Part shown: positions 5,018-43,878 of the stretch, one piece after another
Numbering within the stretch: position 1 is the first letter of the stretch
Layout of the letters: each line of letters starts with the position of its first letter
Assembly: GCA_002104895.1 (NCBI GenBank)
Contig: MCFG01000063.1
Span: 43,501-107,500, forward strand
Source: Anaeromyces robustus
Taxonomy: Eukaryota; Neocallimastigomycota; Neocallimastigomycetes; Neocallimastigales; Neocallimastigaceae
Length of the DNA: 64,000 nucleotides
Direction of reading: 5' to 3'
Notes under the pieces: model-generated
What the model saw: only the letters and a program-made list of their open reading frames with translations
The model's database searches: none
What the model was told of the DNA's origin: nothing
Translations under genes and position numbers: made by a program

Positions 5018-5074
5018 AAATTATTTTTAAATAATAAAAGGAATATTATATAATAATAAATTAAAAATTAAAAA

Positions 5075-6055
5075 ATGAGTAATAAAGAAGGAAACGGTAC
5101 AAAGGACCTATTAGATGGTTCTAATTTCAAAACCTGGAAACAACAATTATATCTGTTATTAAAGGAAGAAGATTTAACTCAATTTATTTATGATAAAAAA
5201 TTAAAGAAAATTTCAAAAGACAATATAGCTGAAGATGACTTAAAAAAACATATTCCAGTGGATGGAATTAATAATTTATTTTATGAAAAATCTGTCACTA
5301 AAGATATGGTTAAAAAAGATGCTAAAACTAAAAAAATTTTAATGAATAGCATCAAAAATGATTTAGCAGTAAATATTGATTTCATATCATCAACAGCATA
5401 TGAAATCTATAATTTAATAAAAGGAATTAATTTAAGTGATGACAATGATAGAATAGAGGAAATAAAAAATTATTTAAATTCAATGAGATTCAATGAGAAT
5501 CAAGATATTCCTCTATCAATATTTATTTCAAATATGAATATGAAATTCAATGAATTAGAACAATTAAAATCCCCTTTAAAAGATTCAGAAAAATTTGATT
5601 ATTTATATAATTCTATCCCAGAAGAATTAGCAATCAAAACTAATATAATAGACCATCAAGAAAACTGGGAAGAAACAACAAATTATTTAATAAAAACACA
5701 TCAACAATTAAAAAGATTAAAAGAGAAAAAATTAAAGCAGTTAGATGTAGAATCAAATAGTGTAAATGTGTCATCTAATAAAAAATATAGTAATTATAAT
5801 AGTAATTATAATAATAATTATAATAATTATAATAATAATTATAAAAATACAAAATTTAATAAATTTAATAATAATAATAATAAATATAAAAATAAAAATA
5901 ATTATAATAAAAATAATCATGATAATAATAATAAAATAATTAAATGTAAAAATTGTGGTAAATTAGGACACACAATATATACTTGTAGATTTAAAAACTA
6001 TAAGAAAAATAATAAAAATTTTAAACAAAATAACGGGAGGCAAGAAAATAAATAA
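5075..6055 (+). CDS. gag: Copia Gag (UBN2-type) with CCHC zinc knuckle
   Basis: A 326-residue nucleocapsid precursor. The N-terminus has the LDGSNFKTWKQQLYLLLKEED block typical of Copia Gag (DUF4219/UBN2), then a helical capsid region with YNSIPEEL (the usual SLP motif) near residues 185-192. An Asn/Tyr/Lys-rich basic stretch (about 230-288) precedes a CCHC knuckle, CKNCGKLGHTIYTC, near residues 292-305. Gag assembles the particle and packages element RNA. The stop at 6053-6055 lies inside the pol frame, which is open from 5967, so pol is probably reached by frameshifting. Confidence 0.93.
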   Translation: MSNKEGNGTKDLLDGSNFKTWKQQLYLLLKEEDLTQFIYDKKLKKISKDNIAEDDLKKHIPVDGINNLFYEKSVTKDMVKKDAKTKKILMNSIKNDLAVNIDFISSTAYEIYNLIKGINLSDDNDRIEEIKNYLNSMRFNENQDIPLSIFISNMNMKFNELEQLKSPLKDSEKFDYLYNSIPEELAIKTNIIDHQENWEETTNYLIKTHQQLKRLKEKKLKQLDVESNSVNVSSNKKYSNYNSNYNNNYNNYNNNYKNTKFNKFNNNNNKYKNKNNYNKNNHDNNNKIIKCKNCGKLGHTIYTCRFKNYKKNNKNFKQNNGRQENK

Positions 6056-7379
6056 CTCCTATTATAGTACTAGTAATAGTCAATATAATAAGAATATTAT
6101 TATTGATAAAAATAATAATATTATTAAAAATAATAATATTGAAAATAATAATAAAATTAATAAAAATAATAATTTAGAAAATAAAAATAATAATCTTAAA
6201 AATAATTGTAAAAATAATAATAATAGTATAGATAAATATGAAGAACAATTTTTTGAAGATTATAATGATGCAATTAATGCTGAATCAAGCAATGTTTCAT
6301 TAAAAAAATCTTCATATAAAAAATTAAAATATTTTTCTTATTATAATAATTTTTCTAATAATAATAATAAATATCATGAAAATAAAAATGATTATAAAAA
6401 TAATTTATATAATAAATATAATTATTATAATAAAAATAAATATAATTATTATAATAAAAATAAAAGTAATTACTATATTAAAAATAATAATACCAATTCT
6501 TATAAAATTAAAAATAATAATACACAAGTTAAAAATAATATAAATAAAAGAAATGACACATTAATTCCTTGGACTTTAGATTCAGGTGCCACTTTTCATA
6601 TGACTGGCAATCCTGATATTTTAATTGATAAAATAAAATATAGCCAAGATATTTACTTTGCAGATGGAAACAATGTTCGTTCCATTTATAAAGGTACATA
6701 CAAGAGATATATTGGAGATAATAAAATATGTTTAAAAAATGTTTTGTATATCCCTGAATTTAAAAGAAATTTAATATCAATTGATTGTCTTTGTCTACAA
6801 AATTTTAAAACTATTTTTCAACAAGAAAATAATAAAAACAAAGTATCAATATATAATAAAAATAAAAATAAAATTTATAGTACTTTTTCAAATGACTCAA
6901 ATACTTATATTATTTGGACGTCAAAAAACAAATTTAATTTTAATAATATTAGTAATAATTTAAAAGATAATAATATAAATAGTTTAACAAATACAACAAA
7001 TAATGACGACGAAAATTTAGAATTATGGCACCGTCGTCTTGGGCATTTTAATATTAATAATCTTAAAAATACATTAAAGAAAATAAAAATTAATAATAAA
7101 TGTAAAATTTGTTCATGCTCGAAATTAAAAAATTTTCCATTTTACAGTACAGAAAATAAATCAAAGGAACCCTTTGAATTAATACACATGGATACAGTTA
7201 CAGTTAATGAAAATTCTTTATATGGAAATAAATATTTTTTAACAATTTTAGATGATTTTACGCGTTATGGTTGGGTATTCTTCTTAAAATCTAAAACTGA
7301 AGTTTTTGATATTTTTCTTAATTGGTATAACAAAATTACAAATATTTTTAACAAAAATATTAAAATATTAAATATATAA
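5967..7379 (+). CDS. pol: Copia Pol, N-terminal part: protease and first half of integrase (interrupted)
   Basis: This frame has no stop from 5967 and overlaps the end of gag. After an Asn/Lys/Tyr-rich spacer (about 6060-6540) comes the aspartic protease active site in WTLDSGATFHMTG (DSG at 6579-6587). Next is the integrase zinc-binding region with LWHRRLGHFN and CKICSC (about 7024-7130), then the first catalytic Asp in HMDTVTV and the core motif LDDFTRYGWVFFLK. The frame stops at 7377-7379, directly before the KTDNGKEF motif that holds the second integrase Asp. That motif lies in another frame, so this copy is frameshifted within integrase (somewhere in 7364-7379). The disrupted point is an AT-only run, so an assembly indel is also possible. 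Confidence 0.9.
   Translation, partial: DTQYILVDLKTIRKIIKILNKITGGKKINNSYYSTSNSQYNKNIIIDKNNNIIKNNNIENNNKINKNNNLENKNNNLKNNCKNNNNSIDKYEEQFFEDYNDAINAESSNVSLKKSSYKKLKYFSYYNNFSNNNNKYHENKNDYKNNLYNKYNYYNKNKYNYYNKNKSNYYIKNNNTNSYKIKNNNTQVKNNINKRNDTLIPWTLDSGATFHMTGNPDILIDKIKYSQDIYFADGNNVRSIYKGTYKRYIGDNKICLKNVLYIPEFKRNLISIDCLCLQNFKTIFQQENNKNKVSIYNKNKNKIYSTFSNDSNTYIIWTSKNKFNFNNISNNLKDNNINSLTNTTNNDDENLELWHRRLGHFNINNLKNTLKKIKINNKCKICSCSKLKNFPFYSTENKSKEPFELIHMDTVTVNENSLYGNKYFLTILDDFTRYGWVFFLKSKTEVFDIFLNWYNKITNIFNKNIKILNI
6035..6041 (+). promoter_or_regulatory. candidate programmed +1 ribosomal frameshift site (GGG AGG C)
   Basis: Gag is read in one frame to 6055; pol continues +1 relative to gag and is open from 5967. 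In the 89-nt overlap the Gag codons GGG AGG followed by C resemble the Ty1 slippery site CUU AGG C, where a slow AGG codon promotes a +1 slip. AGG is rare in the AT-biased genes of this window. Alternative slip sites within the overlap are not excluded. Confidence 0.45.
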
Positions 7380-10300
7380 AAACCGATAACGGTAAAGAAT
7401 TTTTTAATAATAATTTTAATAACTTCTGTAACTTACATGGGATTATTCACCAACATACAGTCCCATATAACCCATCACAAAATGGACGCGTTGAACGTCT
7501 TCATGGAACTTTGCTTTCTACCGCCAGAGCCATGCTACATGATGCCAAGCTTAGCCATGTTTTTTGGGAAGATGCTGTATCTACAGCAAATTATATTCAT
7601 AATAGAATTCCTCATAAAGGTATTAATTTTAAAATTCCTTATGAATTATTATATAACGAAAAAGTTGATTATAATAAATTTAAAGTGTTTGGTTGCCAAG
7701 TATTTTTCTTTGTTCCCAAACAATTTCGTTCAAAATTATCTAATTCTACTCTTCCAGGTATATTTATTGGTTATGATTCCAATCCTTCTGCTTTTAAAAT
7801 TTATGATACTACCAATAATAAAATTATTATTTCGCGTGCCTTAGAATTTTTTGAAGATACTCCAGGTAATTTTTCATCTCCTTCCTCCATTCCAGAAACT
7901 ATTAATTTTATTCCGTATTATGAAATCGGGGGAGATGATGATGATATCGTTTCTATTTCTTCTATAAATACAAATAATAACAATTTAAATAATATAAATA
8001 ATGACAATTTAAATAATATAAATAATAACAATTTAAATAATATAAATAATAACAATTTAAATAATACAAATAACAACAATTCAAATAATACAAATAATAA
8101 CTCAAAAAACAATTTAAATAATATAGACACAAATAATAATATAAATAGTACAGATAATAAACTAAACTATGTTAACAATAATTTAAATAATATTAATAAT
8201 ATTCCAAATAATAATAATAATTTATATAATAATAATTATTCAAATAATAATAATTTATATAACAATAATTATCTAAATAATAATAATTTATATAACAATG
8301 TCAATTACCCAAATAATAATTTATATAATTATACAAATAATAATTTATATGATTTATATAACAAAAATTATAATAATAATAATAATATTAATTATTTATT
8401 AAACAACAAAAATTTATTATATAATTATCTTTCATATCCTCCTAATAATAATAATTATTTTATTCCAAATTATGCTTATTATCCATATTATCCAAATTAT
8501 TTTAATCCAACAATTTATGAAAATAATTTACAAAATAAAAATAATTCATTTGATGAATATTTTGATTACAATAAATACTATAATGTAAATTCAAAAAATC
8601 AACTTGATAAAAATAAAAGTGATAATATTAATAACTTAGAAAATAATTCCATTAACAATTTAAATAATTTAAATCAAAACATTCAACAACAAAATTTAAA
8701 GAAAAACAATACTGAAAATATATTAAATAAAGAAAATAATATTGAATTAAATAAAAATAAAAACAACAACGAAAATTTAAATAATAATATTGAATTAAAT
8801 AAAAATAAAAACAATAATGAAAATTCAAATAATAATATTAATAGAATAAATATGGAAAACAATAGTAAAGTTTTAAATAATAAAATTTTAAATAACAATG
8901 AAAACAATAATAATTTAAACAAAAATTTAAATAATAATAATTTAAATAATAATTATTTAACAAATAATAACAATAATTTAAATAATAAAAGTATTAATTT
9001 AAATAATAATTATGAATCAAATAAAAATAATACAAATAAAATAAACAACTCAAATAATAATTATTTAAATAACAACAACAATAAACTAAATGATAATATC
9101 ACTAGAAATGATAACAAAGAAAAAATATATAATGTAAAAAAGAGAAAGAATATAGACGAAATAACAAATGACATTAAAAAATCAAGATATGTAAGTAATT
9201 TAGTGGTAGTTTTTGATAGTGAAATATCACCTCCTAACAATTTTAAAGAAATATTTAAGAGAAAAGATAAAAACAAATGGTTGGAAGCAATAGATGTGGA
9301 ATTAAATAACTTAAAAGAAAAAGAAGTTTACGAAATCATAGACAACATTCCAGAAGGTAAAAATATAATTTCTACTAGGTGGGTTTTCACTTACAAGAAA
9401 AATGACAAGGGGGAGATTATAAAGTACAAAGCAAGACTGGTTGCAAGAGGATTTTCACAAATTTATCTTATAGATTATATTGAAACTTTTTCACCTACTT
9501 TACAACAAGATTCATTAAGAATTATAATTTGTATTTCATTATATTATAATTTTGATATTTATCAACTAGATATAAAAGCAGCATATTTGAATGCTGAACT
9601 TGAAGATGACATATACTTAGAAATTCCTGAAGGTGTAGAGAATAATAAGAATAAATTTTGGAAATTAAAAAAGGCATTGTATGGTTTAAAACAAGCTGGA
9701 AGAATGTGGAATAATAAATTAGATAGTATATTAACAAAATTGGAATTTATAAGATTAAAAAATGAACCATGTATATATATAAAATTAAATAATGAAAACA
9801 AAATAATTTGCATTATTGCAGTTTATGTGGATGATATTTTAATTTGTGGTAATATAAATAATATTAATAAAATTAAATTACAATTAAAAAATGAATTAGA
9901 TTTAACTGATATTGGTTTAGTAGATTTCATAATTGGAATAAAATTTATAAAATGTGAAAATGGTTATATTTTGCATCAATTATTATATTTAGAAAAAATC
10001 TTAGAAAAATTTAATATTAAAGAAAATAATAAATCATCAAATATGATTTATATAGAAGACGAAAATAAAAGAAATGAAAAATTTGATTCAAAATTATATA
10101 TGCAAGCCGTGGGCAGCTTATTATACTTAGCCATGGGTACCAGGCCAGATATTTTATTTGCTGTTAGTAAAGCTTCCAGAAAGAATAAAAATCCTACCTA
10201 TGAAGACTGGTATAATGTATTAAAAATTTTTAAATATTTAAATGCAAATAAATATTATGGAATAAAATATAATAAAAATATAAATATTAAAGCATTTGTT

Positions 10301-10756
10301 GATGCTGATTTTGCAGGTGACAAAGAAACATATAGGTCCACAAGTGGATTTATAATTACAATGGGTGGAACACCAATAACTTGGTATTCAAAACTACAAC
10401 ACTGTGTTTCAATATCAACAGCAGAAAGTGAATATTATAGCCTAAGTGAATGCGCGTTAAAATGTGTTTGGCTAATTAATTTATTAAATGAATTAAAAAT
10501 TAACATTAAAAATATTACAATAAATATAGATAATAAAGCAGCAATTTATATAAGCAAAAATGAAACAATAAATATAAAATCAAGACACATAAATATCAGA
10601 TATCATAAAATTCGCGAACTTATTAAAAACGATATAATAAATTTAAAATATATTAAATCACAATATAATTTGGCGGATACTTTAACCAAATATCAAAACG
10701 GAAATTTATTATTTAATTTTAGAAAACAAATTTTATATGAATTAAAGAAATATTAA
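7364..10756 (+). CDS. pol: Copia Pol, C-terminal part: integrase remainder, reverse transcriptase and RNase H
   Basis: The frame is open from 7364; its first ATG is at 7511, but integrase sequence (KTDNGKEF, then NGRVERLHG with the catalytic Glu) lies upstream of it, so it is a continuation, not a separate gene. A very long Asn-rich linker (about residues 155-580 counted from 7511) separates integrase from the reverse transcriptase. RT has WVFTYKKNDKGEI, KARLVARGFSQ, LDIKAAYLNA, LYGLKQAGRMW and the catalytic YVDDIL near residue 772. RNase H follows with DADFAGD, STSGFI and STAESEYYSLSE, and DNKAAI near the end. It stops at 10754-10756, six bases before the polypurine tract. RT and RNase H appear intact. 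Confidence 0.95.
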   Translation, partial: NIKYIKTDNGKEFFNNNFNNFCNLHGIIHQHTVPYNPSQNGRVERLHGTLLSTARAMLHDAKLSHVFWEDAVSTANYIHNRIPHKGINFKIPYELLYNEKVDYNKFKVFGCQVFFFVPKQFRSKLSNSTLPGIFIGYDSNPSAFKIYDTTNNKIIISRALEFFEDTPGNFSSPSSIPETINFIPYYEIGGDDDDIVSISSINTNNNNLNNINNDNLNNINNNNLNNINNNNLNNTNNNNSNNTNNNSKNNLNNIDTNNNINSTDNKLNYVNNNLNNINNIPNNNNNLYNNNYSNNNNLYNNNYLNNNNLYNNVNYPNNNLYNYTNNNLYDLYNKNYNNNNNINYLLNNKNLLYNYLSYPPNNNNYFIPNYAYYPYYPNYFNPTIYENNLQNKNNSFDEYFDYNKYYNVNSKNQLDKNKSDNINNLENNSINNLNNLNQNIQQQNLKKNNTENILNKENNIELNKNKNNNENLNNNIELNKNKNNNENSNNNINRINMENNSKVLNNKILNNNENNNNLNKNLNNNNLNNNYLTNNNNNLNNKSINLNNNYESNKNNTNKINNSNNNYLNNNNNKLNDNITRNDNKEKIYNVKKRKNIDEITNDIKKSRYVSNLVVVFDSEISPPNNFKEIFKRKDKNKWLEAIDVELNNLKEKEVYEIIDNIPEGKNIISTRWVFTYKKNDKGEIIKYKARLVARGFSQIYLIDYIETFSPTLQQDSLRIIICISLYYNFDIYQLDIKAAYLNAELEDDIYLEIPEGVENNKNKFWKLKKALYGLKQAGRMWNNKLDSILTKLEFIRLKNEPCIYIKLNNENKIICIIAVYVDDILICGNINNINKIKLQLKNELDLTDIGLVDFIIGIKFIKCENGYILHQLLYLEKILEKFNIKENNKSSNMIYIEDENKRNEKFDSKLYMQAVGSLLYLAMGTRPDILFAVSKASRKNKNPTYEDWYNVLKIFKYLNANKYYGIKYNKNINIKAFVDADFAGDKETYRSTSGFIITMGGTPITWYSKLQHCVSISTAESEYYSLSECALKCVWLINLLNELKINIKNITINIDNKAAIYISKNETINIKSRHINIRYHKIRELIKNDIINLKYIKSQYNLADTLTKYQNGNLLFNFRKQILYELKKY

Positions 10757-17448: not shown

Positions 17449-20225
17449 TTAAGCTTTACAGAAGGATTGAATACCACACCAGTGGTTCTTTTCATAACCC
17501 CATTTACCAAATTCATCTTCTTCATAAACGGTACAACCCTTACAACATGAATATCCGATAATTTCTGACCAACATTCTTCATCATTTTGTGGTTCTTCGT
17601 ATGGAGTAAGACCACACCATTCATTATTATCGAAATCATAACTCCAATCACCATAACTATCTGTATCGTAAACATATGTATCCTTTTCTGAACAACATGG
17701 ATATCCAATAAATTCAGCCCAACATTTGATGGCTTGTTCATCTTCTTTATCTGTTGGTTTATCTGTTGGTTTATCACCATTTTCTTTTGGTTCATCTTCT
17801 TTTGGTGGGTTTGTTGGTGGATTATTTGTTTTATCATCATTATTCTTAGGCATAAACCATGAATCATTAACATTTCCTTCAACTTCTTTATTAATTGAAT
17901 ATTCATAATTTTCATCCATATAAACTGGATCACATTCCATATCATAAGCCTTACAAATATATCTATATTTAGCAAGAATCCAATATTTAAGACCATAACT
18001 ACCAGAAAGATTGGTGAATTCACTATTGGCATCCCATTCCTCAATACTATAATCAGAACCCTTTTCATTAAGCATACCTGGGCATTTTCCATTTTCATCA
18101 GGAGTTTTATCCTTAATAATATGTGGTTTAATGAATTTCTTTAATTCATCAATATGTGGGAAAAGAGTAGCTGGATTGAAAACTTCAGTTACGAAATTCT
18201 TAAGAATATTTTCAAAACGAGTTGGATCATTGAAAATTAAAATATCAAAGATATGCTTCTTTCTGTTAGCATATTCTTCGAAAGTATAAGATGGATAATC
18301 TTGATTTCCTTGACCAAACATATTAATACTATTAACATCTTGACCAAGTTCACCATCAAAATCGTAATAAATAATAGTCCATTTACCAGTTTTTGGGTTT
18401 TTATACATATCGAAATTATGACCAGTATTAACAAAATGATCCCATGAACCAGATAAATATTCAAAAGCAATTTCATATAAGAATTGATCAACATCAAAAA
18501 TATCTTCAATATCTTCAGCAGATTGTGCATTATCCATAGCAGTTAAAAATTCAACCCATTCAGTAGTATCAGTAATTTCATCATTTTCATTTGTACAACC
18601 AGTAGCACATGATTTAACAGTTAAAGCATTACCTCCAGATTTACATTTATATAAATTACCAGTATTTTCATCACCAAATTCTAATTCAGCCCATGATACC
18701 TTTGGAGCATCCATTAAAATATACATACCAATGTATTCGTCATTAACATATAATGAAATGTAATTAGCAGAAATGGAAGTAAGTCCTAAACGATTATGCA
18801 TATCACAAACTAATTTAGATCTTAAATATGTAGCTTCACGAGCATCGGAACGAATTCTAAATTGTTTACGACCGAATAAATCTTTTTTACCACGAATTTT
18901 AAGGTTGAATGCTTGTCTACCAAATATACGTGATGAACTACCACCTAAAGTAAATGTAACTTTATCAAATGATTTTTCTTCTCTATTTTTATATATATAT
19001 AAAAAATAAAATTATAATAAAAAAATAAATATATATAAAATATTAATTTATAAAAAATAAAATTATAATAAAAAAATAAATATATATAAAATATTAATTT
19101 ATAAAAAATAAAATTATAATAAAAAAATAAATATATATAAAATATTAATTTATAAAAAATAATTATTTTTAATATTATAATTTAAATAACATAAAATTAA
19201 ATAATATGTAATTATATTTAAAAAAAAAAAAGTTAAAATCAATTATTTACCCATTAATTTCAACAACCATTGTAGCATTTTTAATTTTGTATGGATCACC
19301 AAAAACATTGAATGTACCATTTTGAGCACCTCCAAAACTGAAATCACCCCAACTGAAGTCACCCCAGTCACCCCAGTTACCAAAACCTCCTTCAGTATTG
19401 TTACCAAAACCACCCCAGCCGCCGAAACCGCCTTCAGTATTGTTACCAAAGCCACCCCAGCCGCCGAAGCCACCTTCAGTATTGTTACCGAAACCACCGA
19501 AACCACCGAAACCACCAAAACCGCCTTCAGTATTGTTACCAAAACCACCCCAGCCGCCGAAGCCACCTTCAGTATTATTACCGAAGCCACCCCAGCCGCC
19601 GAAGCCACCTTCAGTGTTATTACCAAAACCTCCCCAGTTACCCCAGTCAGTATTATTGAAATCACCCCAGTTACCCCAGCTCATACCACTTTGGGCATTT
19701 TCTTTTAATTCTTTAAAATTTTCTGGAGGTACTGAGATTCTAAAGACTGGAATTTCATTATCCATTAATTCAAAAAGTTTTGCACGTTTACCTTCTCCAA
19801 TAAATGGAGTTATGGCAGAAACATAATAAGCTAAATTTATATATTATTATATTTTATTTTTTATATTTTGTATATTTATATTTTATATATTTTATATTTC
19901 ATATTTGGGTATTGTATATTGTATATTTTGTATATTTTATATTTCATATTTGGGTATTGTATATTGTATATTTTGTATATTTTATATTTCATATTTGGGT
20001 ATTATATATTGTATATTGTATATTTTTGCATTTTATTTATATTATTTTTTTTATGAAAAAATTATTTAAATATATAAAATAATATAAATAAAATATAAAT
20101 TAGAAAATAAACAAAAAAAATAATATATTATGTTTAAATAATATTTATTGATATATAAGAAATAAAAGAAATAAAAAGTATGCTTTACCAAAAAATAGTA
20201 CTGTTATTATTAATTTCTTTAACAT
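17449..20225 (-). CDS. secreted CotH-kinase-like protein with two C-terminal fungal dockerins (three exons)
   Basis: Exons 20225-20189, 19830-19251 and 18982-17449 join in phase to 717 codons; introns of 358 and 268 bp use GTAAAG/GTAAAT donors and TTTAG/AATAG acceptors. Exon 1 gives the signal peptide core MLKKLIITVLFFA. Residues about 20-60 hold the CotH start (PVFRISVPPENF), interrupted by a Gly/Trp/Asn repeat region (about 62-172), then CotH continues with HNRLGLTS, NDEYIGMYILM and the acidic DFDG at 413-416 (YYDFDGELGQD). A Pro/Lys/Asp-rich linker leads to two dockerins at about 626-664 and 676-712, each with CW..IGY.CC and W.Y...WCG. CotH proteins are atypical kinases; the dockerins should anchor the protein to the fungal cellulosome. 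A shorter start at Met267 is rejected because it would drop the signal peptide and N-lobe. Confidence 0.93.
19001..19160. repeat. 51-bp tandem repeat, three copies, in CotH intron 2
   Basis: The unit begins ATAAAAAATAAAATTATAAT and recurs at 51-bp spacing. It fills most of the intron between exons 2 and 3. Confidence 0.85.
19370..19650 (-). repeat. in-frame minisatellite inside the CotH gene (GGFGNNTEGGFGGW repeats)
   Basis: About six tandem coding units, mostly 42 bp, each giving GGFGNNTEGGFGGW or a close variant. Each unit contains an N-N-T sequon, so the repeat would be heavily N-glycosylated if exposed. Flanked by shorter WGNWGDF-type units. Confidence 0.9.
19870..20020. repeat. 45-bp tandem repeat, about three copies, in CotH intron 1
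   Basis: CATATTTGGGTATTGTATAT starts at 19900, 19945 and 19990, giving an exact 45-bp period. Lies in the intron after the signal-peptide exon. Confidence 0.88.
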
Positions 20226-22720: not shown

Positions 22721-25541
22721 TTATTTATAATTATATTATTTTATATATTATAAATCAAAAATAATTTTATGACATATTGAAAGATATAAATATATTAATA
22801 TACTGTAATATATTATAAATTTTTAATATATTATTTTATCTTTCTATAATATAATAACAATTTTAATGTAGTACAAATTAATTATTTGTTGTTATTGACG
22901 TATTCTATTGTATTAAAATTATTAAAGTGAAGTAATTAAAAAAAAAAATTATTAAAATAACCGTTAATTAAATTGAATAATTTTGAAAGTAATAAAGATA
23001 AATATAAGGTATAAATTTTTAAACTTTTCCAATATTTAATAGAATAAATATTTAATAAAATAGATTAACAATAATTAAATTCTATTTTAATTAATGTATT
23101 TATTGTTAAAAATGTTAATTAATTACTCTCACCATATAAGTTTATACATTTTTTTAAAGAAAAAAAAGTCAGAATTATTAATATATTATTTTATTCACCC
23201 TGATTATATAATATATAATAAATAATAAATAAATTATAATATATAATAAATAATAAATAAATAATAATTTATGACTAAGTTGCACAAATATAATAAATTT
23301 TTTTATTATCCAATTATGATCTAAACTAATTTTGATTGGAAGATAATTTATATTTAATATTTGTTTTTTGTATATTAACTATAAATATTATTATATATAA
23401 AAATAATAACTATTGAAATAATATATTGTAATATATATCATTAATATATTACTTTATATTCATTTATATATATATTTTAATTTATTTTTTATTTCGTAAT
23501 TGTTATTTGTTATTTGTTATTTGTTATTTATTTAATAATTATAATAACAATATAAATAAATAAGATTATTTATTTATAATTTTTTTATAATTTCATAGAT
23601 GTAATTTTAATAAAATTTTTTTAGATATAAAATAAAAAAACAATAATTTATAATTATTATAATAAAAAACAATAATTAATAATGATTAATGATTAATGAT
23701 TATTAATTATTTAGTATTAAAATATAATTAAAATTAATATGAAATCTTTTTATTAAGTTATTTATAATAATGTTTTTTTTTTTTTTTTTTTTTTTTTTTT
23801 GAACTAATGATTTCCTTTTATCATTTTTTAAGTAGTATTATAGAATGTATTTGATATTTATAATAATAATATTGTTATTTAATAATTTTTTGTTTATATT
23901 TAATATTTTTTTGTTTTTAATGAACACTATATTTTATTGGAATTATTGATTATCTGTTATGTTTTTTCATTAGTTTTTGTCATATACATCATTTTTTTCT
24001 TTTTTTTTCATTTTTTATTACATATTTTTATGATGATTATGATATGCTTTCTAATATCTTTTATTGATGGATCCATAAGATTATTTTTCAGAAAATAATT
24101 TTTTAAAAATCTTTACTTTTTTTAAATTTCGTTCCATTTCTATTATAAATAAAATTTATATATTATTTATAAATATATAATTAATTTAAATAAATAAATA
24201 AAAAAGAAAAAATATATTTTAATGAAAAAAGTGTTTATAATTATTTATATATCAAACTAATAATTTTTTAATGTTTAATGTTTATTTACCTGAATCTGAT
24301 GGATACATATTATATAATGTATTGTAATCAGCATAAGCTTCATCATAATATTTACCATCCATGTAATTTTTAGCTCTGGTTTTTAATAATACAGTAAAAA
24401 GATCACAAAAATCAGATTTTTTATATGAATCAGCTGAACAATTATCATTTTCAAGAACCAAATCACATAATTTGTTGATTGAAGTAGATATATGAAAAAT
24501 ACAATCATCAATCTTTTTTAACTAAATATGAAATATATAAATCCAATATATTGTTAATTATTAATTTTACTTTTTTTTTTTTATAGAAGTAATAAAAGAT
24601 AATTATATATATTTTTTATAATATTATTCTATAATATTTTAAAATATTTACTGATTGATATAGTTCCCCAATTTTTTTATATAATAAAACTTCAATAAAT
24701 CCTAATATATTATATTCTTTGTATTTCTCAAGTAATAATTTATACTGTTTAATGATATTTTCAGTACTATTATTTGAATCGTCAATATCTTATTTGATTT
24801 TATTTAAATCTTCAACTATTTTTAACTAAATATATATTGTAAAATTATTAATTATATATAAATAGGAAATTAATAAAGTATATTAATACAAAGTTATGAA
24901 ATTATAATTATTGGAAAATAATATGATAAAAAAAATTTTTTTAATTCATTATAATAATTAATATTTAATTAATTATTTACTTTTTCTATTAATTCACTAT
25001 TTTCAGGACATGAATTTAGTCCACTTTTTAGAATTTCTTCAGCAGAATTAAGCTTATTTAATTGAAGATAACAAGTTGCTGTTCTTTTGTATGCAGAAAT
25101 ATAATTTCTATCATTTTTAATAGCTTCTGTGGCATCATTAATTGCTTTTTCATATTTGGTAATCATCATATAAGCTGCTGCTCTATTATTATAATAGATA
25201 GAGTTTTTAAATGGAGAATTATCTAATAATTATATGTATATAATATTAAAATAAATATATATATATATTAATAAAATACTAATTAACATATATTCATAAT
25301 TATAAAAAAAGAATTAAATATTGATTATAAAGAATTTAAATATTAACTTATAGCTTTTGTATATAAATCAATAGCTTTTTTATATTCTTTATTTTTGTAA
25401 GCTTTTGTTCCATCACTTTTATATTTTTCTGACTTATTCATTCTTTCGCTTTTTGTTAATTAATAATATATTTTTAAAAATATTTAAATTGTATTAATAA
25501 TATGAAAGATTTGATTTTATAAGTAGTTTTTTTTTATTTAC

Positions 25542-26526
25542 CTTTCATTATTATGTTTTCCTGACTTTTCCATTATTTCGCTTTTTTGTTAATTAATAAT
25601 ATATTTTTTGAAATATTTAAATTGTACTATTAATAATATGAAAGATTTGATTTTATAAGTAGTTTTTCTTTTATATTTACCCTTCATTATTATTTTTTTT
25701 TTTCTGACTTTTCCATTTCGCTTTTTGTTAATTAATAATATATTTTTAAAAATATTTAAATTGTATTAACAATATGAAAGATTTGACTTTTAAAATCAAA
25801 TTATATGATAAAAAACTACTTATAAAGTAGTTTTTTTTATATTTACCTTTCATTATTATATTTTTCTGACTTTTCCATTTCGCTTTTTGTTAATTAATAA
25901 TATTTTTTTAAAAATATTTAAATAGTACTATTAATAATATGAAAGATTGGACTTTATTAGTAGTTTTTTTTTTTTAATTTTTACCTTTCATTATTATATT
26001 TTTCTGACTTTTCCATTCTTTCGCTTTTTGTTAATTAATAATATATTTTTAAAAATATTTAAATTGTACTATTAATAAAAGATTTGACTTTATTAGTAGT
26101 TTTTTTTTTAATTTTTACCTTTCATTATTATATTTTTCTGATTTTTCCATTTCGCTTTTTGTTAATTAATAATATATTTTTAAAAATATTTAAATTGTAT
26201 TAACAATATGAAAAATTTAACTTTATAAGTAGTTTTTTTTTAATTTTTACCTTTCATTATTATTTTTTTTTCCTGACTTTTCCATTCTTTCGCTTCTTGT
26301 TAATTAATAATATATTTTTAAAAATATTTAAATTGTACTATTAATAATATGAAAGATTTGGTTTTATAAGTATTTTTTTTTAATTTTTACCTTTCATTAT
26401 TATATTTTTCTGACTTTTCCATTCTTTCGCTTTTTGTTAATTAATAATATATTTTTAAAAATATTTAAATTATATTGATAATATGAAAGATTTGATTTTA
26501 TAAGTAGTTTTTTTTTAATATTTACC
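25542..26526 (-). repeat. tandem array of seven in-phase micro-exons with their introns (unit about 132-140 bp)
   Basis: Micro-exons at 26429-26391 (39 nt), 26292-26251 (42), 26154-26119 (36), 26023-25985 (39), 25882-25847 (36), 25720-25681 (40) and 25580-25542 (39). Each is preceded by an acceptor of the type ACAAAAAG and followed by a GTAAAA/GTAAAT donor. Six of seven keep frame, starting at codon position 3 and ending after position 2. The consensus peptide is SERMEKSEKYNNE. The exon before the array ends NNE and the exon after it begins SERMNKSEKY, so the unit arose from the boundary between these exons. The 40-nt unit would shift frame. Confidence 0.88.
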
Positions 26527-28860
26527 TTTCATTATTACTCTTTGCATTTGATAATTTATTTTTATAAATGTTATTATTAGATGTGCCATAATTATTGAAA
26601 TTTTTATCTAATTTTATTAATATTTCATAATCATCTGCTGCTTCATGATATTTTTTAGAATTCATATAACATTCTGATCTTTTTCTAAAAAGTTCAACAA
26701 ATAATGAATCTTGTTTACAATTTTGGTATTCATTAATGGATTCTGGTTCACCATTTGTGAATACAATATTTTTTAATATTCTAATAGCTTTATTGGTACA
26801 TTCAATACATTCTTCATATTTATTTAATTATATAGTTTTTTTTTATTTTAAATTAATATAATAAAAATATATGATTTTATATATTATTTTATTAATATAA
26901 ATTAATATAATTTTATTTAAATATAAAAACAATGAAATAAAAATTATTTTTTTTCAAAAAAATACCTTCATTAAGCATGATGATTTATTTCTTAATAATA
27001 TAACAAGTATAATACCTGTTAAATTAATTTCCATATATTCCTCAATTAATTCATCATATTTCTGAATTGTTTCTTCATATAATTCTTTTTTAAAGAAGTT
27101 TTCATTAATATATTTTCTTTTTTCGTCTAATTCTGGAATTTTTTCGATTAATAATTTAGCATTTTCATTTTTTTCATAATATTTTAAAGCTTCACGTAAA
27201 TGACCAATAGTATTTTTTATATTACTTTTACCAGTAATATAAAGTAATTTAGTTTTTAAAGAATTAGCTTCAGAATTTTTTGAATTTCTTATTAACATAA
27301 GGTCAGCAACATTCATAGCTTCATTATAATCATCATTCATGATTAATAATTCAGCACGTAATAATCTCCATTGAATTGGTATTCCATTTAAATTTTCACT
27401 TTTTAATATACTTTTTTTTCCATTTGATAAAGGAATTGATTCAAGATCCTTATCACATTTTAACAAAGTATTTTCTAATATAGTAAGTGCTTTTCTATAT
27501 TCTCTTTCTTTCATTAAATTTTTTACATATTCAATGGAATTTTCCATTTCAGTAACTTTTTTTAGTTATAAAAAAAATAAAAATAAAAAAAAAATTAATT
27601 ATTAAATTAAAAAATAAAAATTAATTTATATTAATAGTTTTAAATATATATAAATATATATTATTTAAAAGTTACTTCATTTTCTAAATTTTGAATGTTA
27701 TAAGATAAATTATTATTTTCTTTTGATAATTCCAAACCCTTTTTAAGATTTTCTTTTACTTTATCTAAATTGCCACGATGAATATTACATTGAGCGTTAA
27801 TTAAATAAGCTTTAACACATTTACTGTCCTTTTTAAAAGCATTTATACAATCATTTATAGCATCTTTATATTTACGTATATTTAAGTAAATATTTGCTCG
27901 ACAACAATAATTATCAGCTGTTGGATTTTTATCTAATTATTAATTATAATTTAAATAACAAAAAAAATATAATTAAATATTAAAAAAAGATCAAAATTTT
28001 TAAAAATATATTTAAATATTTATATAAATTTATTTATTTATCTATTTATTTAATCATACGAATTAATTCATTAATTTTATTTAAAGTATTATCATAATTC
28101 TTATTTTCCGTTAAAAATACACCATCATCTAAACTTTCGCTTTTTACTATAGTGCTATAATATATTATATATAATAATATGATAATATATTATATTTATT
28201 ATATAATTATTATAAATATATTAATAACTATTAAAAATTATTTTAAAAATAATATTACTTATGAGAAGGATATTCTTTCATTTCACCGAAGGAATTTCTT
28301 AATAATTCTTCTTCAGTAAGATTTTTATTTAATTCTTTTTTTATTAAAAAGTTGATATTTTATTTTTATTAAAATATATTATAATTAGTACATTTTTATA
28401 ATTTAATAGAAAGGTAATATTTAAAATTAGGGTTAGTAATTAATAAGTATACCTTGTAATAAATCTTTATATTTATTCGAATCAAATAAAGGAAGAGATG
28501 AACACATTTTAAACATTAAATTTTTACTAGAAAAACTACTGATTTTTTGGATATAATTCTTTTATTTCATTCATATTTAATAACTTAATTATTTAATAAA
28601 AAAATTATAATAAAATTATTTAATTATAATTTTAAACACATTTTTATTTATAATCATTATATCTTTATTAATTTTTATTTTATACCTTTTTATAGGAATT
28701 TGGTAATAAATTAAAACTTTCTGGTGGTAAAATAGTTAATAATTGAGTAATAGGCTTAAGTGGTTCACCTTGATCAAATTCAAAATTTTCATTTTCTTCA
28801 AAATTGCAAAGGTCTTATTGGAAATTTAATTATTTGTTTAATTAATTAATTAATTATTTA

Positions 28861-28905
28861 TTTATTTATTATTACTATTTCTATTATTATAACTATTACT
28901 ATTAC

Positions 28906-28975
<70 letters not shown>
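28861..28975. repeat. TTA/ATT microsatellite in intron 5 of gene copy A
   Basis: TTAT and ACT variants followed by a long ATT run, between the exons at 29000 and 28813. The matching intron of copy B (about 38760-38880) has a shorter, more interrupted version. Confidence 0.85.
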
Positions 28976-29846
28976 TTAAATACTTTCTATTTATATTACC
29001 TGATATTAAAGGACCATAACTTTTGCATTTATTTTTCCAATAACGATACTTAAAAGACCATGTCCAAGAGGGTACTTTATCATAATAAGTATTAAGTAAC
29101 CACTTGATACCTTCAATATAATGATTAATAAATTCTCTTCTATTACAATTTGGAATATTATTCTTTATATAGATAAAAGTATAAATGAAAAAAAAACAGT
29201 TTTTAATTTATGTATATATATTAAAGAGAAACAGACATTTTATAATAATAAGTAATAGAAATATATGTATAATTAAAAAAAATAAAAAATATTAATATAA
29301 TTATTACATTATAATAATCATCTTTCATTTCTTCATAAACACCATTTCTGTCATCTTCATCAATTTTTAATTTAATCTTTTCTAATATATTTTTACCATC
29401 ATTTTCGCAATTCTCTTTTTTGGAAATAACTGAATATTCAATTGTATATTTAATATTAAGTTCTTTACAACGACGTAGAAGAAGATATTCTCTTCTATCA
29501 TCTAAATTTTTAAGATTATTAATATCATAATTATAACGATTACAATAATCCTTAAAATTCCAATAATTATCATTATCATATGTATTGTTTTTATTATCAG
29601 CATCAGTAATAGTAATTTGTTTTTTTTCAGTATAACTTAAATTAAATTTGAAACATAAAAATTTTAAAAATTCATTAGCTTTTGAATTTTTATAATCTAT
29701 AACTATATATTTTAATTTTGGATCTTTACATAAATTTAAAATATTCTGAAAAATTATTCTTTTAAACATATAAATATTAATATTCCCTATATATATATAT
29801 ATATATATATATATTTTTTAAATTTATTAAAATAAATATTAATTAA

Positions 29847-29980
<134 letters not shown>

Positions 29981-32161
29981 TTATGATTATTTTATATATT
30001 TTTATTATCATGATTATAATAATAAATATGTATATAAAATTTTTTTATTAAAATGTTTACCAAATTTAATAGAATCATCATATTCTTCGCTAAATTTACT
30101 TGAAATTTCTTTATCACTATTAAAACAACTATCTTTCATTTCATTATCTAAGTAATAAATCATTTTATTTACAATACATATTTCATCTCTTAGTAAAATT
30201 AAAAATTTTTTTAAATTTTTTTCATTTAGTTTTCCATTATTATTAATGAATTCATTAGTTTTATAAAATTTCATATAGACTTTAATGATATCATCATATT
30301 CAATATCATAAACACCTGGTAAATAATTATTTTCTGTAAGAAAACTTAAACAAATAATATCATCAATTATTTTGTTATGATCTTCTTTAATAGCATTTGG
30401 GAAATTACTTAAAATAACATGACGTAATTTATCAATAGAAAAAAAATTCTTTTTTTTTGAAAAGTTATTGCTATATTCATTATAGATTAAAATATTTCTT
30501 TGATGAAGAGCTAATGAAAGTAAATAAAAATCACTATCAGCAGTACAAATACATCTTTTTTCATATGAAAAATCATTAGAAGATAGAATTTTGTTACTTC
30601 TGATATATTCAAAAATTTTATATTCACCTTCATTAGGAACTTCAGGTCCTGAAAATATAACATTAATATTTCTCCAAGTTGAATCATTATCTTTTTTTTC
30701 TTGAATTTTTTTTTTGAATCCTATCTGAGATTTTTTTCATAAATTCAGTACCAATAGAAATACAATTAAATTTAAAGTTACATTTATCTTTATATACATA
30801 ATATTCACGAAAACGTCTTTGCCTTTGTAAACTAATTTTGGCAAAAGGAGAAACACCATCAAAGAAAATTCCTAAGACTTTTTTAGGATTTAAAATATGA
30901 AGATTAATATCAATTTTATCAAAAACATTTTCGGCAATTTTTTTTTCATTTAAACTATCGATACTATTATCTCTTTCAAAATCATGTAATTTATCACTAA
31001 TTAAACCGTTCATATCGATAAATAAATAATCTAAAAATAATATTTAAATAATAGTATTATTATAATACTATTGATTATTAATAGATGAATAAAAATAAAA
31101 AAAAATTTTTTTAATACAAAATTTTTTTTAATTATATATTATTATTATTTTTAAGTTTGTTATATATATAATATTGTATTATTTTTTATTATATGTATTA
31201 TATCTATAAAATAAATTAAATATATATATATATATACTTACAATTAATGTTTTTAATTTAAAATATTAGAAATAATGAAAAAGAAATTTGAAATTATGAA
31301 AAAAAGTAAAATGATTACTATTATTATTATTATTATTAATGTTATTATAATTAATTTTTATCAGTATTAATATTTTTATTACCAATATCCGGTTTATCGG
31401 TGACATATTCACATTTTTCTTTGATACTGATATAAAAATAAATAAACGGTTAAAAGAAGTTTAAATAATGTAAAATAAAAAAAAAAAATTTTTTTATTAA
31501 ATATATTTAATATATTACTTGTTCCATTTATTTAATTTACGAAAAACCATTTTATTCTAATAAGTCTCAGCTAAATAATATAATATTTATAATTGAAATA
31601 TCATAAATATATATATATATTCATTAAATAGAAAATTATTATTGATTTTAGTATTTATATTATTTTTATATGATGTATATAATTAAAGAAAAAAATTATA
31701 ATAATAACTTTAAAATAATTTTAATAATTTATTAAAATAGCTATAAACAATAACTTTAAAATTTTTATTTTTTTCTTCTTTTTTCATTTAACATTAAATT
31801 ACTATTTAATTACATTAATCAATAATATGTAGGGTTAATAATATAATACTTTTTTAATACTCTTTAATTTAAAAAGTATTTACTAAAAATTTGCCTTATT
31901 TTAAAAAAAAAAAAAAGAAAAAAAAAAAGAAAAAGAAAACAAAAATATATATATATATACATGGATAGGTTTTAACAAATTATTTTAATTAAGAATTAAA
32001 GTTTTAAAAAATAATTAAATTTAAATTAAAGAAGTATTTTAATAGGTGGATGATAAATGTAACATCCAAATTTTAGAAAATAAAAATAATTAAAAAATTG
32101 GACATAAAAATTAATATTACTATAAATAATTATCACATAAATTTTCAATTTCATGTTAAAA

Positions 32162-33925: not shown

Positions 33926-34404
33926 GAAAACACTTTAAGAATCAGGATAGAAACTAGCCAACAAATAATAATTTTTTTAAATTAATAATAATAAAAACTA
34001 TTATATAAATTTTTTTTATGGAAACATTAATATATTTATATAATAATTATATAATGTATTATATATTAACAATTATATTTTATATTTACATCATATTATT
34101 TTATTTATTATAATAATTAATAGTAATAATTATTAATTAATGTTAATATATAATTAAAATTATTATGAAATATATTATAAGCTCAAAAAATACATTCGAT
34201 AAATAACTTTAAAAATATAAAAAGGTAATAAATTTATATTATTAATTTAATAATGAACATGAATACTATAAATAATAGAAATCATTATTAGGTCTTTTTA
34301 TAGAATGTATTTAAATTGATATTTATAATAATAATAATAATAATAACATTATTTAATAATTATTTGTTTATAGCATAATGAAAACTATATATTTTAATAA
34401 ATGA

Positions 34405-41571
<7,167 letters not shown>

Positions 41572-43878
41572 TTTATTTTAATAAGTCTCAGCTAAAGAAT
41601 ATAATTTTTATAATTGAAATAACATAAATATATATATATATTTATTTATTAAATAGAAAATTATTATTAATTTTAGTATTTATATTATTTTTATTTGATA
41701 TATATAATTAGGGAAAAATTATAATAATGACTTATTGTTTATATCTATTTTAATAAATTATTAAAATGACTTTAAAATAATTTTTATAATTTATTAAAAT
41801 AGCTATAAATAATAACTAAAATTTCTATTTTTTTCTTCTTTTTTTATTAAACATTAAATTACTATGCTTTTCATTTACATTAATCAATAATATGTAGGCT
41901 TAATAATATATAATGTTTTTTTTAATACTTTTTAATTTTAATAGTATTTACTAAAAAATTGCCTTATTTAAAAAAAAAAAGAAAAGAAAAAGAAAATAAA
42001 AAAAAAAAAACAAAAAAGAATATATATATAATAAAATTTAATTAACACGGTCGACAAATTATTTTAATTAAAAATTAAAGTTTTAAAAAATAATTAAAAA
42101 TTTAAATTAAAGAAGTATTTTAATTAAAAATTAAAGTTTTAAAAAATAATTAAAAATTTAAATTAAAGAAGTATTTTAATTAAAAATTAAAGTTTTAAAA
42201 AATAATTAAAAATTTAAATTAAAGAAGTATTTTAATAGGTGGATGTAAATGTAACATCCAAATTTTAGAAAGTAAAAATAATTAAAAAATTGGACATAAA
42301 AATTAATATTACTATAAATAATTATCACATAAATTTTCAATTTCATGTTAAAAATGTAATAAATAAATAAATAAAAGAAAATAAATAAATAAATAAATAA
42401 ATAATAAAATAAATAAATAAATGAAAAATAAATAAATAAATAAATAAATAAAAGAAAATAAATAAATAAATAATAAAATAAATAATAATGTTTATATAAT
42501 GTTAAATAACTAATAAAAACTATTTTCTTAATAATTTTACTTTATATAATAAATAATATTTTTAAAACAGAATTTTGTTATAAAAATATTATTTATTATT
42601 AAAATTTTAATACAGAATTCAGTATTAAAATTTTATTTATTGTATAAAGTAAAATTATTAAAATTTAAAAATTTAATAATTTTTTCATCATTTTTTCATT
42701 TTTATTATTTGAAAGAATATTTTATTGTAAAGAGATCATTTATATGACATAATTTGATAATTAAATATTATTATATCGACTAACCTAGAAATATTTTAAA
42801 ATAAACTTTTTTTTTATTTTAAAATTAAGATTGAAAATATTTCATTATAATTTAAAGTTATAACAAAAGCAAAAAAGTTTAAGAGTTGTCCATGATGGAA
42901 GTATTTGGTTTTTATTTGATAATCATAGGTGAAATGTTATAGATACTTTAACAATTAATACTATTCCATTAATTTAATAAATTTATAATTTTTCCATAAA
43001 TTTACGTTAATTCACATGATATTTCAACAACATATCAGGTGAACTTTCTTTTGATATACAGGTTCTTTTATGTGCGCTGGTTGCTTTTAATAGTATAATT
43101 ATATTTTATTAATTATTTAATTTTTATTAACCAGAAATACCTCCGACCTAATAATTCCAATATAAAGGATTATAAAATTGAAAAATTTTAAAAATAATAC
43201 AAAAATTAAATAATTTTAAATAGTTATTTAATATCTAATATATAATAATATAAACTAATATATTATATAATATATATAAGAAATATAATAATAATATAAG
43301 AATTATTAAAAATAATGATATATTTAACTATATAATAATAATAAATTATTACTATATTTTGATTATACTTTAATAATATACTATAATATTAATAATACAT
43401 GAGAATATTAAAATTACATATAATAAAATATATTATAAAATATATAAAAATAAAAGAACGATTTAATTTAATATAATAAAGAATAAATATTTAATATATA
43501 ATAAAAATTTAAACATAAATTATTTTAATAATTATTATTATTAAAAAAAAATATAAATTTAATATTTAAAAAAATTATTATTAAATATACTACACATATT
43601 ACTATACATATTGGTTTTATATCACTTTCATCATTTATCATTATTTATAACATAATTAATAAAAAAAGAAAATTGGTCTTAAAAATAGTCTTAAAAATGG
43701 TCTTAAAAATGGTCTTAAAATTAGTCATTAAATTTTATAATATAAAATAACAAATTATTATAATTATTTTAAACAAATAGTAATAGTATAATAATAATTC
43801 ATATAAATTTTTTAGCATGATTTTAAATTAAAAAAATTTTTTTCCATTTTTATTCATTAAATTTCATTTTTTAAAAAA
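41572..43878. promoter_or_regulatory. divergent intergenic region between XRN-TPR-J copy B and TLDc gene
   Basis: 2.3-kb head-to-head spacer. Holds purine-rich runs near 41965-42020, a 56-bp triplication at 42066-42233, AAAT repeats at about 42356-42485, a palindromic TTAAAA/AATTTT-rich stretch near 42555-42665, and decayed remains of the block seen at 32640-32855. Short duplicated phrases (GGTCTTAAAAATGGTCTTAA) occur near 43676-43725. No core promoter can be defined. Confidence 0.4.
42066..42233. repeat. 56-bp tandem triplication specific to unit B
   Basis: The unit starts AATTAAAAATTAAAGTTTTA and recurs at 42066, 42122 and 42178. Unit A has a single copy at about 31985-32042, so it expanded after duplication. 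Confidence 0.9.

Follow-up and report, generated by a model that had tools for sequence, protein, structure and literature searches.

The 64,000-nt stretch of Anaeromyces robustus DNA analysed here, hereinafter the window (C590:43501-107500 of an assembly of 70.17 Mb in 769 contigs; all positions below are those of the window), has a G+C content of 10 to 28.5% per 2 kb and carries two related genes, A and B, on its minus strand (Table 1). These form a tandem duplication and, aligned in three blocks totalling 5213 columns, are 90.6% identical. Searches with Pfam recover TPR repeats in gene A and DnaJ and XRN_N parts in the A/B pair, with the C-terminal DnaJ domain present in the second copy (B) only. 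The window additionally codes for a CotH protein with CBM_10 matches and a gene of the esterase family. Near the CotH gene (19369-19637, 18998-19162) lie a 42-bp repeat coding GGFGNNTEG-like units and, between two open frames, a 51-bp repeat with exact copies. A copia-type element on the plus strand (5072-10756) contains gag-pol-like reading frames that lie in different frames and overlap, the last of which contains the RVT_2 (reverse transcriptase) and SH3_retrovirus domains. Together, the CotH, esterase-family and reverse-transcriptase genes suggest that the DNA comes from an anaerobic gut fungus. Other tandem arrays include an exact 56-bp repeat in 3.2 copies at 42060-42236 and, downstream of the window on the same contig, a 44-bp repeat in 10.4 copies with 95% matches (L029, 7352-7805).

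Between the two TPR blocks of gene A we observe eight near-identical introns (93-126 nt) interleaved with seven exon-like segments (36-42 nt), all on the minus strand (26525-25449). The repeat unit, an intron with the segment that follows it (n = 7), is typically about 135 bp long (132-140 bp, with one of 166 bp), and the units are 88-98% identical to each other, counting ungapped positions only. Every one of the eight introns has GT..AG termini. The exon and intron models used throughout are predictions from homology and splice signals. The array attains a Tandem Repeats Finder score of up to 1133, the highest among arrays with a period of at least 30 that passed the cut-offs in the window and in 212 kb of other loci, the latter including overlaps. 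Many other arrays, of 30-112 bp, occur in this sampled sequence; hence, tandem repetition per se is ordinary in this genome.

Table 1. Positions of the gene copies, the array and its parts in the window. Donor (d) and acceptor (a) scores are from the splice model described in the text.
Feature	Position	Strand	Remark
Gene copies, XRN_N-like 5' part and two TPR blocks	24000-32100 (A), 34300-42300 (B)	-	
Part of gene B with TPR and DnaJ, no array	34405..38043	-	predicted acceptor 36031-36030, phase 2
Exon n3, gene A	26966..27565	-	acceptor 27567-27566 AA, gene B AG
Upstream exon n4, gene A, TPR block 1	26526..26827	-	last 11 nt = right end of segments
Tandem array, 8 introns and 7 segments	25449..26525	-	unit about 135 bp
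Intron copy I1, 96 nt, GT..AG	26430..26525	-	d 9.6, a 8.5
Segment E1, 39 nt, SERMEKSEKYNNE	26391..26429	-	
Intron copy I2, 98 nt	26293..26390	-	d 6.4, a 3.6 (weakest acceptor of the array)
Segment E2, 42 nt, SERMEKSGKKNNNE	26251..26292	-	
Intron copy I3, 96 nt	26155..26250	-	d 6.4, a 8.5
Segment E3, 36 nt, SEMEKSEKYNNE	26119..26154	-	
Intron copy I4, 95 nt	26024..26118	-	d 6.4, a 8.5
Segment E4, 39 nt, same sequence as E1	25985..26023	-	
Intron copy I5, 102 nt	25883..25984	-	d 6.4, a 8.5
Segment E5, 36 nt, SEMEKSEKYNNE	25847..25882	-	
Intron copy I6, 126 nt	25721..25846	-	d 9.6, a 8.5; insert near donor, apparently inverted
Segment E6, 40 nt	25681..25720	-	in-frame TAA at 25692-25690
Intron copy I7, 100 nt	25581..25680	-	d 9.0, a 9.9
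Segment E7, 39 nt, SEIMEKSGKHNNE	25542..25580	-	
Intron copy I8, 93 nt	25449..25541	-	d 9.6, a 8.5; adjoins downstream exon n5
Downstream exon n5, SERMNKSEKYKSDGTKAYKNKEYKKAIDLYTKAI, TPR block 2 start	25348..25448	-	
Exon n6, gene A, TPR block 2	24981..25222	-	Pfam TPR_2 in enclosing frame 24969-25229
Exon n7, gene A	24652..24825	-	in-frame TAA 24792-24790 where B has AAA

Splice sites were scored with a model trained on introns placed by frame continuity between adjacent exon matches of the CCT/TCP1 chaperonin genes. Among 35 such exon pairs, three lacked a candidate and three were dropped for poor fit, leaving 29 predicted introns of 90-440 nt with acceptor scores of 3.9-11.4 and donor scores of 0.3-12.5. 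The sites of the array mostly score like those of these 29 introns, with the donor value of 6.4 ranking third lowest in comparison to them and the acceptor of I2 falling just below their range; AAG-type acceptors, for their part, are ordinary, being found in 10 of the 29. By this measure, splicing looks feasible for most of the intron copies, with weaker donors in four and a weak acceptor in one. Thus, two proposals of an earlier sequence-only reading of this DNA are borne out, namely that an exon-intron unit of about 135 bp has been amplified in tandem and that each copy has its own acceptor and donor.

The segments are themselves composites of the flanking exons: a typical one corresponds, with few changes, to the first 28 nt of n5 (from 25448) followed by the last 11 nt of n4 (to 26526). 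The n5 stretch shows two differences from the left end of the segments (GAA versus AAT), and the two exon matches, as read from the sequences, have TAA (3 nt) in common where they meet. Such a fusion of 28 and 11 nt is what would be expected of a tandem duplication whose two ends lay in the two flanking exons. The duplicated intron has predicted counterparts elsewhere. In gene B, a phase-2 acceptor (AAAAAAAAG/T, the slash marking the end of the intron) is predicted before 36029, ahead of the homologous exon, and a distant TPR-DnaJ gene on C115 likewise has a predicted phase-2 acceptor (TATAG/T). By eye, the position of both introns agrees with that of the array intron to one or two residues, the phases being taken from the reading frames. 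As a phase-2 intron is predicted at this place in both genes, the array intron looks older than the array.

Based on these observations, we posit that the starting state was a single phase-2 intron, already present between two TPR blocks, and that a stretch of about 135 bp, which took in the entire intron together with the adjoining 11 nt of the exon upstream and 28 nt of the exon downstream, was repeatedly duplicated in tandem. The outcome would be eight introns, with each duplication leaving 39 nt of joined exon ends between introns; since 39 is a multiple of 3 and the intron has phase 2, this scrap would automatically be read in its native frame. Each unit holds the whole intron together with exon from both sides, and the donors and acceptors of the array are copies of the sites of the existing intron. 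These copies retain splice signals that would probably be usable by the spliceosome of this genome. The array would accordingly be a minisatellite of an intron and its exon edges, most likely neutral, rather than a selected protein module. We regard this explanation, an intron multiplied by tandem duplication into a neutral array within a degenerate XRN-TPR-DnaJ-like gene copy, as the best one and as probably correct. With regard to timing, the divergence within the array (about 5.7%) is lower than the synonymous divergence between genes A and B (about 12.5%), consistent with the array having arisen after the genes were duplicated; exchange among the copies would also lower the divergence.

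The sequence-only reading had described the segments as seven in-phase micro-exons, six of which preserve the reading frame. The lengths agree with this: six of the seven segments are divisible by 3 and free of stops, E6 being the exception. However, with the intron in phase 2, a 28+11-nt fusion places every fresh copy in frame, so that the pattern amounts to one 1-in-3 coincidence and not six; moreover, the segments are exons by prediction only, and E6 runs into a stop. As the TAA in E6 follows an A run, a sequencing error in its length is possible. Later changes in the segments comprise a 3-nt loss common to three of them, changes in the length of A runs, and several substitutions. Comparing six segments (without E6) with seven introns (without I6), we found similar variation in the two: 5 of 39 columns vary in the segments as compared to 17 of 96 in the introns (Fisher p = 0.61), with mean pairwise differences of 5.4% and 5.75%, respectively. 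Only one of the six substitution steps in these segments is synonymous (AAG to AAA), while the others change the residue (AGA to ATA, GAA to GGA, TAT to CAT and, in two steps, TAT to AAA). In a count made by eye, indels that are multiples of 3 make up two of three in the segments and three or four of eight in the introns (Fisher p = 0.55 or 1.0), i.e., their lengths do not favor frame-keeping in the segments. In this small sample, the changes offer no pointer to constraint on a peptide.

The state of the gene that carries the array is also informative. The acceptor of n4 (26829-26828), like that of n3, reads AA in gene A as against AG in gene B. The only other AG found for n3 (27555, score 7.2) and for n4 (26811, score -0.7) each shift the frame into stops; n3 may still be spliced via the AG at 27555, though out of frame. 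Further downstream, exon n7 contains a stop and the last exon lacks the J domain, and upstream the XRN_N part has a frameshift. The XRN part of gene B has a frameshift of its own along with a TGA. The XRN frameshift and the changed length of E6 both come down to the number of As in a run and might be errors of sequencing, whereas substitutions account for the stop in n7 and for the changes at the two acceptors. The A-B dN/dS is 0.70 before the array (388 codons) and 0.90 after it (133 codons), values below 1 that allow weak constraint at most on A, B or both. Taken as a whole, gene A looks like a degenerate or decaying duplicate. Since the carrier looks broken, the array is probably a neutral side product of the copying of DNA rather than a working feature of the protein. 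We also considered repeat-induced point mutation as the source of both AG to AA changes and rejected it, there being no strong excess of the corresponding changes among the A-B differences (C>T 67 versus T>C 47; G>A 55 versus A>G 59).

Gene B lacks the array, as the sequence-only reading had stated, yet it has one predicted exon of 37 nt (36195-36159) just upstream of the array-homologous intron. The alignment of the two genes breaks at 26609-24936 in A (1.7 kb) versus 36379-35509 in B (0.9 kb), with well-conserved flanks. The non-aligning part of A contains both the array and TPR block 2, and the latter differs strongly between the copies, as if the block had been swapped with another, unseen paralogue. 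A third close paralogue with the middle part of gene A was not among the 19 matches obtained, of which the best outside C590 has an E-value of 1.9e-8.

Two smaller features of the array merit mention. The longest intron copy, I6, carries about 30 extra nt that by eye resemble an inverted copy of the adjacent ACTACTTATAAAATCAAAT stretch, a possible template-switch insertion. Separately, the acceptor 11-mer of the array, AAAAGCGAAAG, recurs in exon n1 of gene A (28134-28144, minus strand), where gene B differs; it occurs four times in the window versus a mean of 0.00 in shuffles, and its presence in n1 is possibly a small transfer from the array.

Searches of the assembly for the same unit at other loci, a check that had been proposed for the array, recovered this locus only. 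The DNA search, which passes over very frequent words and assigns scores to the top candidates only, gave at least 47 matches (best 40 of 49 candidates scored): the array at 100%, the last intron with the downstream exon at 93%, and 45 others at 65-91%, among them one 43-bp match at 91%. Two of the weak matches are long, namely 65% over 559 query bases on C54 and 67% over 331 on C75. Neither locus has an array of period 30 or more at the cut-offs used, and the 20 nt that open the segment were not recovered at the C75 locus and were recovered only once, with up to 4 edits, at the C54 locus; in the 55 loci covered by this test, nine had a loose match, several of them overlapping loci of one gene. 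We took the two as AT-rich background. A pattern search with the acceptor region (up to 3 mismatches) gave five matches, as compared to four for the reversed control pattern; four of the five fall within the array, and the fifth, with 3 mismatches, lies on C489. With no other copy of the unit found in the assembly by the DNA and pattern searches, there is no sign of transposition. In the viral and prokaryote collections, no relatives were confirmed, as expected for a fungus.

Several other explanations of the array have to be weighed against intron multiplication. The one that survives best, possible in our estimate but well short of even odds, is that the array is only an intronic minisatellite: were the gene transcribed, the donor at 26525 would join the acceptor at 25449 and the segments would never be exons. 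This is compatible with the neutral reading, and it draws on the direct n4-n5 join, which is in frame, on the commonness of tandem arrays in this genome, and on the splice scores, in which the outer donor (9.6) exceeds four of the seven internal ones (6.4 each) and a weak value (3.6) is seen for one internal acceptor. Segments of 36-42 nt are also short for exon recognition. Against it, the internal acceptors equal or exceed the outer one in six of seven cases, three of the seven internal donors are about equal to the outer donor, and the resulting intron of 1077 nt would be longer than all 29 training introns.

A working micro-exon cassette, in which all or a variable number of the segments are spliced in and lengthen a charged TPR linker in a shortened, expressed protein, is unlikely. 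The intact GT and AG of all eight introns with their mostly intron-like scores would suit it, as would the six open, in-frame segments; selection could also explain both. Starting from MNSKK in n4, the residual frame would code for 249 aa if every segment except E6 is included and for 172 aa if none is, the n4-n5 join again keeping the frame; with all the segments, it would end after 120 aa. Against this reading stand the stop in E6, segments that are no more conserved than the introns and have a single synonymous step in six (E6 left out), indel lengths without a frame-keeping bias, and the lesions around the array, namely the two acceptors lost upstream and the stop and missing J domain downstream. 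A closely allied notion, to which we give marginally less credence, is that of an expandable micro-exon VNTR, wherein tandem duplication sets the copy number and nearly every copy would be spliceable and in frame; the linker between the TPR blocks would then grow in 13-residue steps and vary further by exon skipping. In either form, a shortened gene with a variable linker is possible but unlikely. The proposal in the sequence-only reading of a longer charged linker or combinatorial splicing thus loses ground, given the E6 stop, segments no more conserved than the introns, and the gene lesions.

It is improbable that the array is intergenic, with one gene ending in ...NNER-stop (TAA 26524-26522), another starting at the ATG at 25441-25439 (MNKSEKYK...), and the repeats, each with a short ATG..TAA frame, serving as promoter or leader. 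Unspliced n4 does reach this TAA directly after the donor, and n5 has an ATG before its first TPR helix; however, the phase-2 intron predicted at the same place in gene B and on C115 and the lack of an in-frame ATG in the matching exon of gene B argue against a spacer, as do the DnaJ end of B downstream of both blocks and the mostly intron-like scores of the donors and acceptors. Least credible of all is that the assembler made or miscounted the copies, since, for all that AT-rich tandem repeats are prone to misassembly and a single assembly was available, the units differ pairwise by 2-12%, which is not expected from false duplication; the exact copy number may nonetheless be wrong.

Multiplication of a pre-existing intron, the reading we prefer, has precedents. 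The term is used for the Arabidopsis TOUCH3 gene, in which a whole intron with exon from both sides underwent two tandem duplications, in PMC4974935, a source citing Knowles & McLysaght 2006 (TOUCH3) and Gao & Lynch 2009 for intron multiplication; the intron-gain table in PMC3443670 omits simple duplications of existing introns. As in TOUCH3, the duplicated stretch here would be an entire existing intron with exon on both sides (PMC4974935), and as the whole intron is duplicated, the splice sites are inherited and not new. The array differs from the two duplications of that case (PMC4974935) in its seven net duplications, eight introns, about 39 nt of exon per unit and degenerate-looking gene. 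We therefore suggest viewing it as an extreme variant of known intron multiplication, with eight copies and 13-codon scraps. Intron gain by tandem duplication of AGGT, for which potato RdRp is among the cases described in PMC4974935, is comparable in that an in-gene duplication raises the intron number; unlike that process (PMC4974935), no new splice site would be made here, as the intron existed before. Fungal introner-like elements also present many near-identical introns (PMC4457414), but those lie in many genes, as opposed to tandem copies in one (PMC4457414).

The sequence-only reading had likened the array to the micro-exon genes of schistosomes, which PMC10526429 describes as genes for secreted proteins with introns of 100 to almost 5000 bp and a few exons not divisible by three. 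The likeness holds for the many short predicted exons, mostly multiples of 3 with a few exceptions (PMC10526429), and is otherwise loose: in contrast to those secreted-protein genes (PMC10526429), we have a TPR protein with introns of 93-126 nt and near-identical tandem exons in an apparently broken gene. The Pfam domains of the A/B pair would argue against a secreted protein. Multiplication of the TOUCH3 type appears to be the nearer precedent. Among the matches listed from the open-access literature, titles and the opening parts of abstracts mention no eightfold intron or in-frame micro-exon tandem array in fungi.

The array offers a clear snapshot of one intron becoming eight. Where the ends of a duplication lie in both neighboring exons, short in-frame scraps result, and micro-exons can thus arise without selection for them. 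If the copies are spliced, the instability of a minisatellite would be linked to exon number. More generally, arrays of in-phase micro-exons need not mean function.
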